From: Sphaerotilus mobilis
Lineage (GTDB): Bacteria; Pseudomonadota; Gammaproteobacteria; Burkholderiales; Burkholderiaceae_C
Assembly: GCF_004216565.1 (NCBI RefSeq)
Contig: NZ_SGWV01000010.1
Coordinates: forward strand, 310,001 to 374,000
DNA length: 64,000 nt
Direction of reading: 5' to 3'
Under the pieces are notes generated by a model. The model was not told the origin of the DNA. It ran no database searches and saw only the letters and a program-made list of their open reading frames with translations. This document shows positions 1,012 through 10,981 of the stretch, piece by piece (position 1 is the stretch's first letter; each line of letters starts with the position of its first letter). A program made the translations under genes and the position numbers.

Positions 1012-1989
1012 ATGCGCACCCGCCGCCTTGCCCTGCTGACCGCCTGCGCCGCCGCCGTCCTGGCCGCGTCCGCACCCGTCGCGGCCCAGACCTACCCGGA
1101 CCGTCAGGTCAAGCTGGTGGTGGGCTTCCCGCCCGGCAGCGGCCCGGACGTCGTCGCCCGTCACCTGGGCCAGAAGCTGGGCGACCTGCTCAAGCAGCAG
1201 GTGGTGGTGGACAACCGCGCCGGCGCCGGCGGCCAGATCGCCGCCCAGGCGGTGGCCCGCTCGCCCGCCGACGGCTACACCCTGCTGCTCGGCGAGGTCG
1301 GCTCGATCAGCATCTCCCCGGCCGCCTACGGCAAGCTGCCCTACGACCCCGCGCGTGACCTGCAGGGCGTGGCCGAGGTGGTGCGCTCGGACTTCGTGCT
1401 GGTGGTCCCGGCCGACTCGCCGTCGCGCAGCGTGGCCGACTTCGTCAGCGCCGCCAAGGCCCAGAAGGACAAGGTCAACATCGGCACCTTCGGCGCCGGC
1501 ACCCCCGGCCACTTCGGCGCCGAGGTGTTCGGCAGCCTCGCCGGCTTCGCCGTCGAACCGGTCCACTACCGCGCCACCGGCGACGCCATCAGCGCCATCA
1601 TCACCGGCGACGTCAAGGGCGCCTTTGTCTCCACCGCGCTGGCCATGGCCCAGGTCAAGGGCGGCAAGATGCGCGCCCTGGCCACGACCGCCGCCGAACG
1701 CTCGCCGCTGCTGCCCGACGTGCCCACCTTCACCGAGTCCGGCTACCCCAAGGCCGACTTCTCCGCCTGGTTCGCCGTCCTGGTCCCCACCGGCACACCT
1801 ACCGGCACGCTCGACCTCCTGAACCGCCAGACGGTGGCCGCCATTCAGAGCCCCGAGGTCCGCCAAAAGCTCCAGGAAGCCGGCTTCACCGTCATCGGCA
1901 GCACCCGGTCCGACACCGAGCGCATGCTCAAGTCCGAAGCCACCCGCTGGTCCACCGTCGTCAAGGCCACCGGCTTCAAGGCCGACTGA
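1012..1989 (+). CDS. Bug-family (TctC-like) periplasmic substrate-binding protein
   Basis: A 325-residue solute-binding protein of the Bug/TctC family, which is greatly expanded in Burkholderiales and binds carboxylates or aromatic acids in the periplasm. Residues 1-25 form a signal peptide ending in PVAAQ. The mature start YPDRQVKLVVGFPPGSGPD and the later VDNRAGAGGQIAAQAVA are the classic Bug motifs. A ribosome site AGAGGAG sits just before the ATG. No TctA or TctB membrane gene is adjacent, so it may be an orphan receptor or sensor, as many Bug proteins are. The adjacent LuxR-type gene with a shared upstream motif suggests ligand-responsive control. The ligand cannot be read from sequence. 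Confidence 0.9.
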   Translation: MRTRRLALLTACAAAVLAASAPVAAQTYPDRQVKLVVGFPPGSGPDVVARHLGQKLGDLLKQQVVVDNRAGAGGQIAAQAVARSPADGYTLLLGEVGSISISPAAYGKLPYDPARDLQGVAEVVRSDFVLVVPADSPSRSVADFVSAAKAQKDKVNIGTFGAGTPGHFGAEVFGSLAGFAVEPVHYRATGDAISAIITGDVKGAFVSTALAMAQVKGGKMRALATTAAERSPLLPDVPTFTESGYPKADFSAWFAVLVPTGTPTGTLDLLNRQTVAAIQSPEVRQKLQEAGFTVIGSTRSDTERMLKSEATRWSTVVKATGFKAD

Positions 1990-2013
1990 ACCCCCTCGTA
2001 CACTCCCGCCCGC

Positions 2014-2092
<79 letters not shown>

Positions 2093-2120
2093 GGACACGG
2101 TTTCAGGATGGTTGGATATG

Positions 2121-2156
2121 ACGGCTCGATGCGATGCATCGGGCCGTTGGTGTTTG
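2121..2156 (+). terminator. Rho-independent terminator of the tRNA gene
   Basis: ACGGCTCGATGC (2121-2132) and GCATCGGGCCGT (2136-2147) form a 12-bp stem with one G-U pair and a GAT loop, followed by TGGTGTTTG. Near-identical hairpins occur at 2451-2478 and 4470-4497, each after a tRNA 3' remnant, so tRNA end and terminator were copied together. Confidence 0.75.
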
Positions 2157-2338
2157 TGGGGTGTGCCGTTTGCTGAGTTGGACAAGGTAGACGACTCAAG
2201 CCGAAAGTTGTGCCCTGGAGGCGAAAGCATCCGCGTACACGTCTCGTGTTCGGCGATACCTGACGGCTCACCGGGGGCAGAGCAACTGCGAGCCCAGCAC
2301 GGTGCCCGCCTACAGACCCTCCCGGGTCCACGGCGAAG

Positions 2339-2494
2339 GCATGGTCCAGGGAGTCCGGAAACGGGCACAAACCGGAATACTTTGGTCGTTGGTTCAAGTC
2401 CAACGCGGCCTACCACCCCACCCACTCCACCCGCGAGGAAGTGTTCATCGACGGCTCGGTGCCTGTGCATCGGGCCGTTGGCGTTTGAGGGGTG
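2339..2494 (+). repeat. Direct repeat, left copy: tRNA 3' remnant plus terminator
   Basis: About 156 bp, closely matching 4356-4513. It holds a shared leader (2341-2380), a tRNA 3' end at 2381-2415 (intact T-arm GTTGG-TTCAAGT-CCAAC, acceptor strand and CCA) and a hairpin terminator at 2451-2478. The 5' half of a tRNA is missing, so it cannot be a functional tRNA. It could be an attachment-site duplicate or the relic of a lost tRNA gene. The stretch 2157-2338 before it shows nothing recognisable. Confidence 0.7.
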
Positions 2495-2872
2495 CGAGTT
2501 GTCGGGATGCACTCGCGGAATCGTTGCTGCAGTCGATCGAATTTCGCGGTCAGCCGTGTTGAGGCCACCGCCTCAGGTCGCTGGACCGTCCCCGCTTACC
2601 CAAGAAGTCGCCCCGTGGACACCATGATTGCCTCACTTGGCAAAGCGGCGGACTGTCGACAAAATCGGTAGCAAACGCCGCGCCTGACAGCAATTGCAAT
2701 TCTGTATAAACGTACAGCCTTAGGGGTCAGATGCGACGTACCCACGGGTCATGTTAGGCGAACCCGATCCGGACGACTGTTGGCGTTCTAGGCGATAGTG
2801 TGAGGTCGTTTGTAACACTACATGGGCATCCCTGTTAGACCGCTATCAAACACCAAAAGGTCTGCGTTCGCC
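2495..2872. other. Gene-free leader of the accessory module
   Basis: No supported gene. It contains the LexA-type operator and promoter (2684-2717) and GTTAGGC at 2753-2759, which matches the integron core consensus GTTRRRY. AT content rises from about 2630 onward, marking the entry into accessory DNA. Confidence 0.5.
2684..2717 (+). promoter_or_regulatory. LexA-type SOS operator overlapping a promoter
   Basis: CTGTATAAACGTACAG (2702-2717) fits the proteobacterial LexA consensus CTGT-N8-ACAG exactly in its arms. TATAAA (2705-2710) inside it could be a -10 element, with CTGACA (2684-2689) as -35 at a short 15-base spacing. This overlap is typical of SOS-repressed promoters. The first downstream start codon is 105-156 bases away. 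Confidence 0.55.
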
Positions 2873-3547
2873 ATGGAAAAGCCAAAAGTATTCATCAGCG
2901 TTGGCAGCAATGGCACGGAAGTGCAGCGTGCAGCCACAGATCAGATATTTTCGCTTGTCAAGGCCATCGGGCTTTCGCCTCGCCAAATGGAGAAGAACGA
3001 ATGGTCATCTGAACAGCCACTGCGCGCGATTCGCAAAGTTATTGATGAGTGCCATGGAGTTGTAGTGGTAGCTTTCACCCGCTATGAATTTGCATCTGGT
3101 GTTGAGTACAAGAAGAACAATGAATCATCCCCACTTCAGCACGTTCGACTCCCGACAGTCTGGAATCAAATTGAGGCAGCAATGGCCTACGGAAGAGGCT
3201 TGCCGCTACTCGTGATCTGCGAGCACGGGTTACGGGACGACGGGCTCCTCGAAGGCAAGTACGACTGGAAAGTGCTATGGACAGATTTTTCTACCGCCGA
3301 CATCAACTCAGAAAAGTTCTCTGGATTTGCTGAATCTTGGAAGCGCCTTGTTGAGGAGCAGGCCGCAAAACAGTCATCCGTGCCTCATCCCAAAGAAGTA
3401 GACCTCGCACGAGTTTCAATTTCTAAGCTACTCGGGATGCTTACCTTTTCTCAGTTCACTAGTATCATTGCAGCACTCGCTTCTGCATTTGCGTCAGTGG
3501 CTGCAGTCGCGTTTAAAGTTGGCGGGGGGAAGTGGCCGTGGGAGTAG
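2873..3547 (+). CDS. TIR-like domain protein with C-terminal membrane segment
   Basis: About 224 residues if started at the ATG at 2873; an in-frame ATG at 2822 would add 17 residues that look non-conserved. The N-terminal part reads like a TIR-like or nucleoside-deoxyribosyltransferase-like Rossmann domain. It has an opening strand KVFISVGSN, a second strand GVVVVAFTRYEF, then WNQIEAAMAYGRGLPLLVI, where the glutamate of QIEAAMA sits where TIR NADases carry their catalytic Glu. A hydrophobic stretch near residues 188-216 (FTSIIAALASAFASVAAVAF) looks like one transmembrane helix. Base composition is far more AT-rich than the core genes. It lies behind a LexA-type operator and before a HEPN-like gene, so an abortive-infection effector is plausible. 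The domain call is by eye and not certain. Confidence 0.6.
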   Translation: MEKPKVFISVGSNGTEVQRAATDQIFSLVKAIGLSPRQMEKNEWSSEQPLRAIRKVIDECHGVVVVAFTRYEFASGVEYKKNNESSPLQHVRLPTVWNQIEAAMAYGRGLPLLVICEHGLRDDGLLEGKYDWKVLWTDFSTADINSEKFSGFAESWKRLVEEQAAKQSSVPHPKEVDLARVSISKLLGMLTFSQFTSIIAALASAFASVAAVAFKVGGGKWPWE

Positions 3548-3702
3548 CTCAAACCTATGGGCGGCCCTATCGTATAACAAGCCAATCAGTTGATTTGCAT
3601 CTCAAACTGGGGAGTCATCCCGGCTCCAACTGGTCGTCCAACTAGAGACTAGTGTGCTGCGCGCTCTGGCGCCAGTTAACTTCGGCGACCGACTTCGGAG
3701 AG

Positions 3703-4293
3703 ATGTATTATGAGCCTCGTGCAGTCGTGAACAATAGAACTTCAGCCGTTTCATTGACGGACGCACAGTTACACCGACTGATCTACTCAAACTGGGACTT
3801 CCAGCAAGCGCTGTCCGCACTGACCTTCCTGATTGAAGATTGCGACTTCCAAGCGAAGTACAGCCCGGTCGAATTGCGAAGATTGCGCTGCTATGAAACC
3901 AGCTTCATCGTCTCCTTTGCTCGACCGTTTGAGATGAGTAGAGGCCAGACTACTTTGGGACTGAAGGCTATCGGTGTGAGGCTCGATAGCAAAGACACCC
4001 AGTTAAAGGACAAGATTGTCTCGTTGCGTCAAAAAGTGGTTGCGCACTCGGATGAAGACTACATGCATTATCGGGGGGTAGTGCTCGCGCCATTTAACGA
4101 TTCAGCAATTGGGTTGCCAGTACTGAAGTACAGCGAATCACTACACCTCGAAGAGTCAGACTTGCGTCCGATCGAGGGTCTGCTCCAAAGGCTACTGACA
4201 CATATCACGAAGGCGTTGTTCCAAGTCGCCCAGTCAGATCCTGAAAGACTCAGTGTCTACAAAACACCGATTCAACCGCCCGCCAAGGCCTAA
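3703..4293 (+). CDS. HEPN-like protein, possible RNase partner of the TIR-like gene
   Basis: About 196 residues from the ATG at 3703, which is preceded closely by GGAGAG; a GTG at 3652 is an alternative. The protein is helix-rich and unrecognised overall. It contains LRQKVVAHSDEDYMHY near residues 108-123, where R109 and H115 are spaced as in the R-X4-6-H motif of HEPN ribonucleases, particularly the AbiU2-like group (RNK..AH.D). The gap of about 155 bases after the TIR-like gene holds no clear promoter, so co-transcription is likely. Composition is AT-rich like its neighbour. The stop codon lies within GCCTAAC (4287-4293), the inverse of GTTAGGC at 2753. Function beyond a possible toxin or defence role is unknown. 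Confidence 0.55.
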   Translation: MYYEPRAVVNNRTSAVSLTDAQLHRLIYSNWDFQQALSALTFLIEDCDFQAKYSPVELRRLRCYETSFIVSFARPFEMSRGQTTLGLKAIGVRLDSKDTQLKDKIVSLRQKVVAHSDEDYMHYRGVVLAPFNDSAIGLPVLKYSESLHLEESDLRPIEGLLQRLLTHITKALFQVAQSDPERLSVYKTPIQPPAKA

Positions 4294-4355
4294 CTTATAT
4301 ACAAGGATCTCCCTGCGATCCGCCGCCTCCGCGGCAGGCATTGGATACTACGAAA

Positions 4356-4513
4356 GCATAGTCCAGGGAGTCCGGAAACGGGCACAAACCGGAACCCTAG
4401 GGTCGTTGGTTCAAGAACAACACGGCCTACCACCCCCCACCCTTCAATCCAGCGAGAACGCGTCCATCGACGGCTCGGTGCCTGTGCTTCGGGCCGTTGG
4501 CGTTTGTGCGGTG
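4356..4513 (+). repeat. Direct repeat, right copy: degraded tRNA 3' remnant plus terminator
   Basis: About 158 bp matching 2339-2494. The tRNA-like part (about 4401-4432) still ends in GCCTACCA, but its T-stem has a mismatch (GTTGG against ACAAC), so it is more decayed than the left copy. The hairpin at 4470-4497 is retained. The two copies bracket the two-gene module. Confidence 0.7.
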
Positions 4514-4538
4514 ATCAGTTCGTGGGCCTCGGGGGTCT

Positions 4539-5087
4539 TTACTTCGCAACTTCGAGGCATTTGATCATTTTCTTTTCGTTTACTATTTTCAGGCAATCTT
4601 GAATGTTTGGTGTTTTCTCGGAAGCTGTCGCCTGAGTTGTGGGTGGATCTTTCTGAACAGGTGCCCCGATGGGTAGATTGGGCTTTAACGGCGCACGGTT
4701 AATGGTCGGCGGCGCTACAGGCCCCGACTGCGGATAAGATGATGTCGCATCCGCACTGAACTTGGCGACAACAACTAACAGGACAAATGCTGCTAGTAGC
4801 ATGGCCACCACGCGGAGCCAACTTGTTTTGTTCTCTGGATTTTCGACCTTCTTGCTGAAAGGCTCTGAAATACTTTCTTGGGTCTCTTTCGGATTGACCA
4901 TTTTCAGTGCAAACCAAGTGCCGATCGCGACAATCAGCAAATCGACACCTGTGTATGATGATCCGCCAAGCTCAATGGCAATATATGCCATAAAAATTGC
5001 CATCGCCCAGACGAGAGGCTTGCTATTTTTTAGATGAGCAATTAGTATTATTGGAATAGCATGCAAAAGAGCGATGAAGAGGATCAT
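4539..5087 (-). CDS. Hypothetical membrane protein
   Basis: 182 residues, family not recognised. The N-terminal 65 residues hold two or three hydrophobic helices, a charged loop follows (about 66-90), and another helix lies near residues 91-111 (LRVVAMLLAAFVLLVVVAKF). The C-terminal 70 residues are proline-rich and probably extracytoplasmic, with two cysteines in the last 20 residues. The gene ends 26 bases after the right tRNA-remnant repeat and is AT-rich, so it may belong to the accessory region. It lies 80 bases downstream of the DUF4124 gene on the same strand and may share its transcript. Confidence 0.6.
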   Translation of the reverse strand: MILFIALLHAIPIILIAHLKNSKPLVWAMAIFMAYIAIELGGSSYTGVDLLIVAIGTWFALKMVNPKETQESISEPFSKKVENPENKTSWLRVVAMLLAAFVLLVVVAKFSADATSSYPQSGPVAPPTINRAPLKPNLPIGAPVQKDPPTTQATASEKTPNIQDCLKIVNEKKMIKCLEVAK

Positions 5088-5167
5088 TTCATTCCTTTAT
5101 TGCACTCTCGGTTACTTGAGCAAGGCTGCTGAGTGCCTCCTTTAGCAAGTCAATGAATGCAGTTGCC

Positions 5168-5677
5168 TCAGTTTCGAACGCAATTGAAGTCCCTGTTGTC
5201 GCCGCACGGGCGAGTAATGCCTTGCGGTCGAATGATGATTGTGTCCGGCTCCTTCTGTCCGCAAGCAATAAACATCTCGCTTCGCCTGGCCTCCAGTTCC
5301 TTCTTCTTCGGAGCATATGAGCTAGCAAGCACCTCATAGCTTCGTTTGGCTTGCTTGCATTCCTCTGTCAGCGGCATATTCGCCTGCCTTTCTGGCGAGC
5401 GATCAAGTTGCTGTTGCGGTGCGCGCTGTTGACGCAATTCGATGTTTTCTCGTTGCAGTCGCTCGTTCTCTTCTCGCAACAGCAACTCCCGCGACTCTGA
5501 TGCGTTGAGCGTATTGCCAGTGACATTTACTTCACGCTGCTTATTGGATGGCGGGCAAGGTCTGTCGGAATAGGTGAACTTTCCGTTCCCTGCGTCGCAC
5601 TTGTACGCGCTTTGCGCGATTGCGTCAGATGCCAGTAGAGGCAGTGCGACAAGGATTGCAAGTGCCAATTTATCCAT
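5168..5677 (-). CDS. DUF4124 domain secreted protein
   Basis: About 169 residues from the ATG at 5677; an ATG four codons earlier is possible. A signal peptide (DKLALAILVALPLLASDAIAQ) is followed by the DUF4124 signature YKCDAGNGKFTYSDRPCP, a small periplasmic domain common in Beta- and Gammaproteobacteria. A coiled-coil-like stretch rich in Glu, Arg and Gln follows (about 60-90). The C-terminal part has several cysteines (TEECKQ, FIACGQ, RPCG, FNCVR) that may form disulfides. Function is unknown in this family. Composition is somewhat AT-rich, like its downstream neighbour. Confidence 0.75.
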   Translation of the reverse strand: MDKLALAILVALPLLASDAIAQSAYKCDAGNGKFTYSDRPCPPSNKQREVNVTGNTLNASESRELLLREENERLQRENIELRQQRAPQQQLDRSPERQANMPLTEECKQAKRSYEVLASSYAPKKKELEARRSEMFIACGQKEPDTIIIRPQGITRPCGDNRDFNCVRN

Positions 5678-5728
5678 TTCAAGCCCCATTCAATAGATCA
5701 ATGATATTGACGTCGTTTACTCCACGCC

Positions 5729-6361
5729 TCACCTCGCCCTGCGCGTATCCATATTCCCCCCCAGCGTCTCCAACTGGATCGTGTGCCCGCTGAAGTTGTT
5801 CCCCACCCGCGTGAACTCGATCGGCTCGACCACCTCGCGGGCATCCGTCGTGATGTGGAACAACTTGCCCGGCCCCTGCCAGATCAGGCCCTTCATGATG
5901 GTCATGCGATAGCGGCCCAGCGGCATGTCCAGAGAGGTGGACTGGCCTGAGCGGATCGGCACCAGCGCGACGGCCGCGTGGGTGTCCCAGTGGTCGAGGC
6001 GGACGGCGAAATCGGCCGGGCCGGTGTACGGCGCCTGCAGCGTCAGAGGGGCCGTCGGGCCGGGGGTGTCGGCGACATACCAGTGGACGGTGCCGGGTGA
6101 CGGGAAGGGCTGTTGTCGTCTCAGGCCGCCGATGACGAAGGCGACCAGCAGCCCGCCGAGGATCAGGCCGCACCACAACATCCAGGGCGAGCGGGCCGTT
6201 GCGCCGCGCCAGCGGGACGGGTCCAGGTGCGGGCGCAGTTGCTGCGGTTGTGGGAACGAGCGAAGCGGGTCGGCCTTGCGCTGCTGTCCTTGCTGACCTT
6301 GCCGAGCGCCGCGCTGCTGCCGGTGGTGATCCCGGTAGTAGTCACGATCGTGGATGCCCAT
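5729..6361 (-). CDS. Single-pass membrane protein with MGIHDRDYYRD N-terminus
   Basis: 210 residues from the ATG at 6361, chosen because GGGAGAA lies just before it and because MG(I/L)xDRDYxRD is a recurrent N-terminus in Burkholderiales proteins. A glutamine/arginine-rich cytoplasmic head (about 1-60) is followed by one transmembrane helix (MLWCGLILGGLLVAFVIGGL, about 65-84) and a periplasmic domain of about 120 residues beginning VHWYVADTPGPTAPLTLQAP. No enzyme motif is visible, and the aspartic-protease motif that often follows this N-terminus is absent. Base composition is back to host level. Confidence 0.65.
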   Translation of the reverse strand: MGIHDRDYYRDHHRQQRGARQGQQGQQRKADPLRSFPQPQQLRPHLDPSRWRGATARSPWMLWCGLILGGLLVAFVIGGLRRQQPFPSPGTVHWYVADTPGPTAPLTLQAPYTGPADFAVRLDHWDTHAAVALVPIRSGQSTSLDMPLGRYRMTIMKGLIWQGPGKLFHITTDAREVVEPIEFTRVGNNFSGHTIQLETLGGNMDTRRAR

Positions 6362-6662
6362 GAGTTCTCCCTGCGCGGAGGTGCATCCCCCGTCGCGGCC
6401 TGATTCTGTCGGGGGTGCGCTGACCGCAGCGTGCAGATTTCGCACATCTGACCGGTTCGGCGCGCGCTGTACCGCAGAGCAAGCGGCGCCGCTGAAGCTC
6501 CGCCGGCTGGACCCTGGGCGTGCGGACGACCTTCAAGCTAGCCGAGTCCGCGTAAGAACCTCGCACCACCCTCGACCGACGCTCAGCCGCCTGATGGGCA
6601 TGCTCTGGACGGGCATCCGGCGGGGCGGTTTTCACCACCGATTGATACGAGGCACCCGAACC

Positions 6663-9395: not shown

Positions 9396-9640
9396 CGCGT
9401 TGACGCCGCGCTCAGCGCCTGCATGCTGGCCGGATCACGCAGCGCCGGTGTCATCAAGAACATCGGCAAGGGCATGCCCCTGCGCATGACGACGCCGATG
9501 ACATGGGTCTTGGCGGCCTCGGCCAGATGTTGCATGTGCGATTCGAAGGTTCTGCGCCAATGCCTCTGCAACTTGGCTGTGCGGACTTGGCTCAGATAAG
9601 GCGGATGGGTGGGATGTGTGTCTATTTTGAGGCCGCCGGG
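9392..9640 (-). pseudogene. 3' end of a truncated gene coupled to the tandem paralogues
   Basis: The minus strand is open in one frame from about 9660 to TGA at 9392-9394. It reads plausibly as protein: KIDTHPTHPPYLSQVRT, then KLQRHWRRTFESHMQHLAEA, then MRRGMPLPMFLMTPALRD. Codon use is host-like with high GC at third positions. The stop overlaps the ATG of the next gene. No convincing start is visible: the first ATG in frame (9535) would give only 47 residues and cut into the conserved-looking part. Upstream the frame runs into the AT-rich lipoprotein gene. I read it as a gene that lost its 5' end, though a short real gene from 9535 cannot be excluded. Confidence 0.45.
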
Positions 9641-10254
9641 CTTGGTGGTTCTAGATTGACCCCTACGGCTACCGGTTGAGTTGGCGATGTCTGGGGGCCC
9701 TGTTGAGATCGACTTATTGCATTAAAGGAAAGAGCGTCGGCTTTTGCCGGCGCCAATGAGCAATTCAAAGCCATGTTTACAGCTGTGACGACCTTCTTAT
9801 TTGCATCACCTGCCTGCGCGTATTGATTTTGACCTTCGCTTGCAGCTGAGACCACCTGCATTCTTCTGTTGGCCTGTATTGCCTGAGAGAACGAAGAGTC
9901 AATGGCAGAATTAATGCCGTTTGTTGCCCCGGAAAGGCTTGACCAGGCGGTGGCTGTCGCGCCCGATGTTATCGGCGCGAAGACGGCGCCTGCAAACACA
10001 CCAAGCGCGGTAACGCCCATGCGGACATTGCTCGCGTCGCCGTCCTTGTTTTCGTAGTAATTATGTACGTCCCGACAGAATATGCTGGCTTGCAAAAAAG
10101 CTGATGCCGCTTCGCCTTCTGTGCAAGCGTTATTTGCGCAAATTTTTGGAGCGCTGACAGTGCCTCCTGCCTTCCACGGCCAATTGGCCGGGGTTGCGCA
10201 ACCGCTGGTGAGAAGAGCAGCCAAAAATAGTCCAATGTTAGACTTTGTGTTCAT
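9622..10254 (-). CDS. Hypothetical lipoprotein, low GC
   Basis: 210 residues from the ATG at 10254, chosen because a lipoprotein signal follows (NIGLFLAALLTSGC, Cys about 18). Upstream in-frame sequence to 10533 lacks such logic. The mature part has paired cysteines (KICANNACTEG, SIFCRDVHNYYENKD), a hydrophobic GVTALGVFAGAVFAPITSG segment and an Asn/Gln/Ser-rich tail. GC content is clearly lower than the flanks, which points to transfer. Its 3' end overlaps the truncated gene described above by about 20 bases in another frame. Family unknown. Confidence 0.6.
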   Translation of the reverse strand: MNTKSNIGLFLAALLTSGCATPANWPWKAGGTVSAPKICANNACTEGEAASAFLQASIFCRDVHNYYENKDGDASNVRMGVTALGVFAGAVFAPITSGATATAWSSLSGATNGINSAIDSSFSQAIQANRRMQVVSAASEGQNQYAQAGDANKKVVTAVNMALNCSLAPAKADALSFNAISRSQQGPQTSPTQPVAVGVNLEPPSPAASK

Positions 10255-10739
10255 TCTTGCCTCAATACGTAAAGAGCCGAATTTCGAAACTTGAAGGTAT
10301 CGCGGTATCGAATATTTTTTGGTTCTATTGCCGTCCTTTCTGCGTGCCATTTTCAGGGCCTCTACCGACCAAGCTTTCTTGCCCAAGCCGACAACCGCCC
10401 TCACCAATTGCCCGATCGCTCTCGCGACCACGCCCAATTGCAGGCTGATTAGCCAATCGTTTGCCGACATCCGACTCCCCTGTTCGTCCCGGTTGATCCA
10501 CGCCGTTTCACCGAGACTTCCAGCAAGCAGCAACGTGATTTAATTGGGCGCCAGCCACATTTGCACTTCATCACCCGCATTGGGGATGGCACACAGCCCC
10601 ACCTCGGACTACAAGCCGCTCCAAAAACACCGCCCGCATCGATGTGCAGTGCAACAAATGGCCCCGGCGCGGCGCGAGGTGGGTGGATTCCGTGAAAACC
10701 ATCACACACCATCTGGGCTCACTTGATCAGGGGGGTGAA

Positions 10740-10981
10740 CTTCTTCTGGCGAATATGAACGTTCGCAGAATGGTCAATTCAGACCGGCACATGCCCACCC
10801 CATCCACCCCGAATCCCGCGCCGCCTTTGCGAAACACCCGCACATCCAGCAGACCGAGCATCTGATCGTGCGGGCGTTGCGGGATGCGGGGGCGTTGAGC
10901 GTGTTGCTGGTGGCGCGTGGTGGTGCGGTTTCGTGGGGCGTTCGGGGTGACGCAGGAGGCCTGAAAGCCAACAAGCCGTGA
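10740..10981 (+). pseudogene. 5'-truncated coding remnant
   Basis: The plus strand is open without any ATG from about 10738 to TGA at 10979-10981. Its last 60 codons look genuine by third-position GC and content: HPIHPESRAAFAKHPHIQQ, then EHLIVRALRDAGALSVLLVA, then RGGAVSWGVRGDAGG. An in-frame stop lies just before 10738. The family is not recognised. The remainder of 10255-11106 (about 850 bp without an intact gene) holds only this remnant and the terminator at 10987-11015; I see nothing in 10255-10735. Confidence 0.35.

Follow-up and report, generated by a model that had tools for sequence, protein, structure and literature searches.

Several described systems resemble parts of the locus considered here. 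TIR, DRHyd (deoxyribonucleotide-hydrolase) and SLOG domains are treated as related effector or messenger domains of conflict systems (PMC7159879), type IV Thoeris combines a TIR protein with a caspase-like protease (PMC12847820), and integron cassettes are described as stores of defense genes (PMC12409362). We analyzed a window of 64,000 nucleotides of the Sphaerotilus mobilis genome (contig NZ_SGWV01000010.1, positions 310,001 to 374,000) and within it a block of two genes, of which gene 1 has a predicted TIR-like fold and a membrane helix and gene 2 is likely a HEPN protein, preceded by a box for the SOS repressor LexA. The interpretation we prefer, held tentatively and with a probability of roughly 0.45, is an acquired, cassette-like, SOS-controlled pair of toxic effectors, probably defensive. 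It draws directly on the SOS box as seen against the rest of the genome, the fold and membrane helix predicted for gene 1, the conserved HEPN-type motif, the unusual composition of the block and the mobile settings in which some relatives lie.

The SOS box and the two predicted proteins

The LexA box upstream of gene 1, CTGTATAAACGTACAG, contains a TATAAA (2705-2710) that is a possible -10 element, and by eye a CTGACA (2684-2689) was found 15 bp before it, an overlap that would fit repression; a promoter scan restricted to spacers of 16-18 returned no such pair. The bare pattern CTGT-N8-ACAG, exact once in the 64 kb with 0.59 expected and at 12 places genome-wide, is alone weak proof because 43 of 100 shuffles contained at least one. 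Calibration on the sites of the host itself was more informative. The best genomic box, CTGTATGAACATACAG, precedes a gene taken by eye as imuA, and the host lexA (C1:68058) and recA (C10:50082) have the upstream sites CTGGATGAACAGCCAG (C1:67982) and CTGTACAAACATCCAG (C10:49991), each with three mismatches to CTGTATGAACATACAG compared with two for the window box. Searching the 4.65 Mb genome for CTGTATGAACATACAG with up to three mismatches gave 11 distinct places (nine forward and six reverse matches), while the same pattern read backwards as a control gave 0 and 1 matches genome-wide. The window box was among the six best SOS-motif matches of the genome, ahead of the lexA and recA boxes, and a central AAC was common to the window, lexA, recA and imuA sites. 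Judged by motif, we take the window box to be real and to match those of the host LexA regulon, and the LexA control proposed in a first-pass annotation of this DNA was supported by the calibrated scan.

That annotation had also proposed two same-strand genes in AT-rich DNA, coding for a membrane-tethered TIR effector and a HEPN protein. Both open reading frames (ORFs) were found on one strand together with the motifs WNQIEAAMAYGRG and LRQKVVAHSDED, and GC content across the block was about 0.50-0.55, below that on the upstream side (0.62-0.64 at 2001-2750 and 0.70-0.75 further upstream); downstream it stays low to about 5.7 kb and then reaches 0.67-0.70. For gene 1 the more likely start by comparison of sequences is ATG 2873 rather than ATG 2822, which would add 17 residues, because the ORFs of several relatives (loci L028, L029 and L030) begin there; those of L027 and L031 are a few residues longer. 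Gene 2 may start at ATG 3703, but this is uncertain.

The structure model of gene 1 (predicted local distance difference test, pLDDT, 89) has a TIR/DRHyd fold over residues 1-162 and a C-terminal membrane helix at 192-217, and its Rossmannoid fold carries a conserved glutamate (E101) after the third core strand, as expected of a TIR/DRHyd protein. The closest solved structures were DNPH1, MilB and NDT, with TIR domains close behind. In a Foldseek search the best E was 2.2e-4 and the query template modeling score at most 0.43 among the matches shown. Sequence searches against solved structures gave nothing convincing, there was no match to TIR family models (Pfam TIR, TIR_2 and ThsB_TIR), and the sole Pfam match in the gene 1 family was a weak one to DUF4062 in one of 29 members (E 4.8e-5, below cut-off). 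The structure model and helix prediction thus supported the proposed TIR-like fold and C-terminal helix. Since the fold is slightly nearer to N-glycosidases of the DNPH1/NDT type than to classical TIR domains, nicotinamide adenine dinucleotide (NAD) is only one option for a substrate.

In the gene 2 family the arginine and histidine of R-x5-H, a spacing within the R-x4-6-H of HEPN proteins, were invariant in 7/7 and 13/13 sequences, and the aspartate of R-x5-H-x-D was likewise invariant in the 13 members. The structure modeled from seven sequences (pLDDT 75) is a bundle of four helices in which the motif precedes the last long one, and a second structure comparison returned HepT-type structures, including MntA-HepT, among unrelated bundles. 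Weak matches to HEPN_AbiU2 occurred in eight of 13 members (best E 0.0054), the other listed families matching one member each, and no HEPN profile matched the family above cut-off. Motif, modeled bundle and weak family matches together suggest that gene 2 is likely a HEPN family member, in support of the earlier assignment.

Relatives, mobility and insertion site

Among 120 related genomes, gene 1 was present only in its own. There were matches of low identity in 4 of 72,556 plasmid records, and phage records contained no match for either gene. A scan of genome contigs gave at least 80 gene 1 loci in many phyla, with flanks of up to 5 kb that were often ended by contig ends. In a tree retaining 82 of 84 rows, the window gene grouped with L027, from a betaproteobacterium, and L028, from a metagenome-assembled genome of Bacteroidota (support 100/99). 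Neighbor clusters among 91 loci included TIR-like proteins in 12, a SLATT-type protein in nine and a caspase-like peptidase in eight, Pfam confirmation being limited to L027 for caspase, L045 and L050 for SLATT (DUF4231/SLATT), and L027, L022 and L065 for ThsB_TIR. In L027 the ThsB_TIR and Peptidase_C14 genes lie upstream on the same strand, the caspase gene being 34 bp from the open frame of gene 1; elsewhere Pfam identified DUF4145 in L056, a fusion of EAD7 with gene 1 in both L044 and L058, and a CAP12-type TIR preceding gene 1 in L062. Many closer relatives have a C-terminal membrane helix. Of the nine SLATT loci, seven (L045, L054, L081, L087, L093, L098 and L101) have a SLATT-type gene that ends 1-31 bp upstream of a helix-less gene 1, while L050 has both a SLATT gene and a gene 1 with its own helix, and the SLATT gene of L074 is farther away. 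This arrangement suggests that the membrane part may be supplied in cis or, by a SLATT partner, in trans. The family is spread over many phyla and has no curated model in Pfam, NCBIfam, PHROGs or PADLOC; its repeated position near SLATT, caspase, ThsB-type TIR and EAD7 makes it a testable case of membrane-tied nucleotide-handling effectors. In a viral contig (L013), a 308-amino-acid ORF at 5570-6493 behind a gene 1 relative has by eye an apparent C-terminal membrane stretch and no Pfam or PADLOC match.

Relatives of gene 2 were sporadic, occurring in 3 of 120 related genomes (single-protein search) and 2 of 369 genomes in the class (profile A2); profile A12 matched 6 of 398 genomes from the phylum and 10 of 399 from the family. 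The own genome is counted in each of these overlapping sets, which amount to at most 1,286 genome searches. Seven of 72,556 plasmid records had a relative. There were 15 places in other genomes, of which 13 regions were compared (G720 and a second place in G949 were left out), and in three of the 13 the relative was inside an attC array, with nine sites in L169, nine in L172 and three in L175; single attC-like palindromes in L113 and L174 were not counted as arrays. In L175 a TIR gene is the cassette adjoining the gene 2 relative, with an attC between them. Gene 2 would accordingly represent a likely HEPN family able to move as integron cassettes. Relatives of both genes were thus seen in mobile settings or near conflict genes, as the first-pass proposal would lead one to expect. 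Directly behind the gene 2 relative of another viral contig (L107, 2948-5078) are GmrSD_N and RiboL-PSP-HEPN genes, the GmrSD_N protein matching PADLOC NsnA (E 3.5e-76).

The window block itself bears integron-type marks. The motif GTTAGGC, which was chosen after the sequence had been seen, occurs twice in the window on the two strands together, at 2753 (+) and 4288 (-), which are the two ends of the pair, so that core sites are present at both ends as in a cassette. Because 2.2 were expected, the number is unremarkable and the placing at the block ends is the telling part. Relaxed motifs were common (27 GTTRRRY and 20 RYYYAAC on the plus strand), and there was a second GTTRRRY on the 5′ side, GTTAGAC at 2834. 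No attC-type fold was found at 2682-2759 (z +0.96 versus z -12.2 for the attC of a relative), which rules that stretch out as a working attC, and no complete attC was found behind gene 2. Near gene 1 relatives, attC-like palindromes were found in three of 80 loci, including L071, where an attC lies at the stop codon; a palindrome more than 400 bp upstream in L037 and one in L101 (39 bp behind the frame, six of seven core bases) were not used. An integron integrase gene of the host is at C2:904 (L182, G000:C2:144-1848; TIGR02249, E 1.8e-135); near it, at a contig end, is an attC-like site. The loss of any folding attC speaks against a cassette, and we read the block as cassette-like.

The block is also surrounded by direct repeats of an intron 3′ end and tRNA 3′ exon, and is therefore in a tRNA-associated insertion site (Table 1). 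The content of the repeats was read by comparison with intron-bearing tRNA relatives in G019, G032, G002 and G024 (L119-L122). Broken copies of an intron-containing tRNA(CAU) gene are at 2165-2415 and 4351-4431, near the intact tRNA, and their group I intron is one that we take to be of the Azoarcus type. Rfam found nothing beyond tRNA in the window at 1900-6000; it listed the group I intron family in four of five loci of relatives at E ≤2.5e-7, exceeding the gathering score in L120 and L121, and in the fifth, L130, at E 0.18. Further low-GC stretches of the window are at 4539-5689, encoding a DUF4124 protein (5168-5689) and a possible membrane protein, and at about 9500-10750.

Table 1. Positions of features in and around the two-gene block, in window coordinates
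Feature	Position	Strand	Remarks
Intact tRNA, CAT anticodon	2014..2092	+	no intron
Left direct repeat	2334..2494	+	3′ end of degenerate group I intron, tRNA(CAU) 3′ exon and following stretch
LexA (SOS) box CTGTATAAACGTACAG	2702..2717	+	overlaps TATAAA
GTTAGGC, 5′ block end	2753..2759	+	identical to integron attC core (GTTRRRY); motif search
Gene 1	2873..3547	+	predicted TIR/DRHyd-fold domain and one C-terminal membrane helix; 224 amino acids from ATG 2873
Gene 2	3703..4293	+	HEPN-like, with RQKVVAH as R-x5-H motif; uncertain start (ATG 3703; frame open from GTG 3652)
GCCTAAC	4288..4294	+	reverse complement of GTTAGGC; overlaps gene 2 stop; attC start position in integron cassettes
Right direct repeat	4351..4513	+	two pieces, 86% and 82% identical to left repeat

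Interpretation and alternatives

Under the preferred interpretation the block would have been gained horizontally in cassette-like form and placed under host SOS control, such that DNA damage, for example from phage attack, would cause LexA to be cleaved and both genes to be expressed. The product of gene 1 could then be a membrane-anchored, N-glycosidase-like TIR/DRHyd enzyme that hydrolyzes NAD or a (deoxy)nucleotide or makes a nucleotide signal at the membrane, that of gene 2 an AbiU2-type HEPN protein cutting RNA, and the two, jointly or singly, would keep an infected or damaged cell from growing. Of this scheme we infer the enzyme activity, its substrate, the joint transcription and cooperation of the genes, and the anti-phage role. 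A bolder version, in which membrane-anchored TIR/DRHyd effectors of an uncurated family, with the membrane part fused or from a SLATT partner, and an integron-borne AbiU2-type HEPN RNase would form one cassette with its own SOS switch, i.e. a mobile, damage-triggered, dual-effector suicide module, appears rather unlikely.

Several observations weigh against the preferred interpretation. No exact LexA-type box was found upstream of gene 1 relatives (0/83, 0.3 expected by shuffling), and six of the 83 had one within one arm mismatch, so that SOS control as a trait of the gene 1 family is ruled out and would be local to this genome. The gap between the genes, 155 bp if gene 2 starts at ATG 3703, makes co-transcription no more than a possibility. 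Unrelated Rossmann-like folds were also among the Foldseek matches of gene 1. For gene 2, Foldseek gave no match at E ≤0.001, and the VIA scores (best 9.2, HepT types 7-8) were within the chance range for helical bundles; the window protein was not among the HEPN_AbiU2 matches and has a glutamine after the motif arginine (RQKVVAH) where seven of nine aligned sequences have asparagine. PADLOC matched none of the four window proteins scanned (genes 1 and 2 and two downstream ORFs), NCBIfam neither gene above cut-off, and PHROG gave one weak match, to gene 2 only (E 0.045).

A further adverse result concerns pairing. The two genes had been annotated as a candidate module, and the search for co-occurrence did not support a conserved one: in flanks of up to 5 kb, many of them cut by contig ends, the gene 2 profile matched 0 of the 80 gene 1 genome loci, and the gene 1 profile matched 0 of the 13 gene 2 regions. 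A conserved two-gene module is rejected on these counts, and the comparative evidence, as read from sequence, speaks against an old, fixed partnership. These are the results expected if two unrelated single-gene effectors, brought in as successive cassettes or tRNA-hotspot insertions, merely stand side by side, each acting alone and with the LexA box driving gene 1 only. The same alternative could account for the variable or absent same-strand partners of gene 1 in the 37 of 80 loci viewed by eye (L027-L063), for the distance between the genes, and for gene 2 relatives that are attC-bounded cassettes in three genomes, with the TIR gene of L175 parted from its neighbor by an attC. We regard it as a real possibility, but there was no attC-like site on the plus strand between the window genes, GTTAGGC and GCCTAAC enclose the pair as a single block, and L028, one of the two closest gene 1 relatives, has a protein with the motif R-N-P-F-S-H (RNPFSH) 57 bp downstream of gene 1. 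That protein had no Pfam or PADLOC match, and as kin of gene 2 it was rejected for want of a profile match. Together with L056, in which a DUF4145 gene lies 39 bp upstream of gene 1, L011/L175, where gene 2 is preceded by a TIR_2 gene, and L107, it belongs to a set of looser parallels that are anecdotes with no background rate; a sequence link between gene 1 and the TIR gene of L011 was not significant (probability 3.6).

It is improbable that the block is a decaying remnant with no present function. The flanking repeats are degenerate, as their 86% and 82% identity indicates, the tRNA copy with the intron nearby is broken and a complete attC is lacking, but both frames are intact, family motifs have been kept and the SOS box comes close to the consensus. 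Nucleotide-handling partners of HEPN toxins are known, and the presence of MntA-HepT structures among the fold matches of gene 2 would be in keeping with a toxin-antitoxin pair in which gene 1 neutralizes or modifies the HEPN toxin, as in HEPN-MNT. This is very improbable, given that gene 1 has its best structural matches among N-glycosidase and TIR folds and not nucleotidyltransferases, that it has a membrane helix, and that each gene is found without the other.

Comparison with described systems

Titles and abstract beginnings in a partial coverage of the literature contained no described system with the make-up of an SOS-controlled TIR-like and HEPN pair, in agreement with what had been claimed for the pairing at first pass. 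Direct SOS control of the pair, if true, would couple DNA damage to toxic effectors with no need for a dedicated phage sensor. Within the TIR/DRHyd/SLOG superfamily, gene 1 is alike in that residues 1-162 are nearest to DNPH1, MilB and NDT and then to TIR domains, but differs in having only a weak DUF4062 match and in the C-terminal membrane helix seen in many closer relatives. Resemblance to type IV Thoeris is through L027, with its ThsB-type TIR and caspase genes upstream, whereas neither gene was seen beside gene 1 of the window, and the ThsB TIR gene and ThsA-type effector in one operon that mark Thoeris were not found, PADLOC having no match among the four window proteins scanned. Gene 2 shares with the HEPN toxins AbiU2 and HepT the R-x5-H motif, the helical bundle with the motif before its last long helix and the weak HEPN_AbiU2 matches of its family, but has no curated family over cut-off and no AbiU2 match of its own, and unlike in HepT-type systems no nucleotidyltransferase antitoxin was recognized beside it. 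Finally, although the block stands outside an array, has no folding attC and carries its own SOS box, it resembles the anti-phage integron cassettes in the attC arrays around gene 2 relatives of three genomes, in the GTTAGGC/GCCTAAC at its ends and in the integrase gene of its host.
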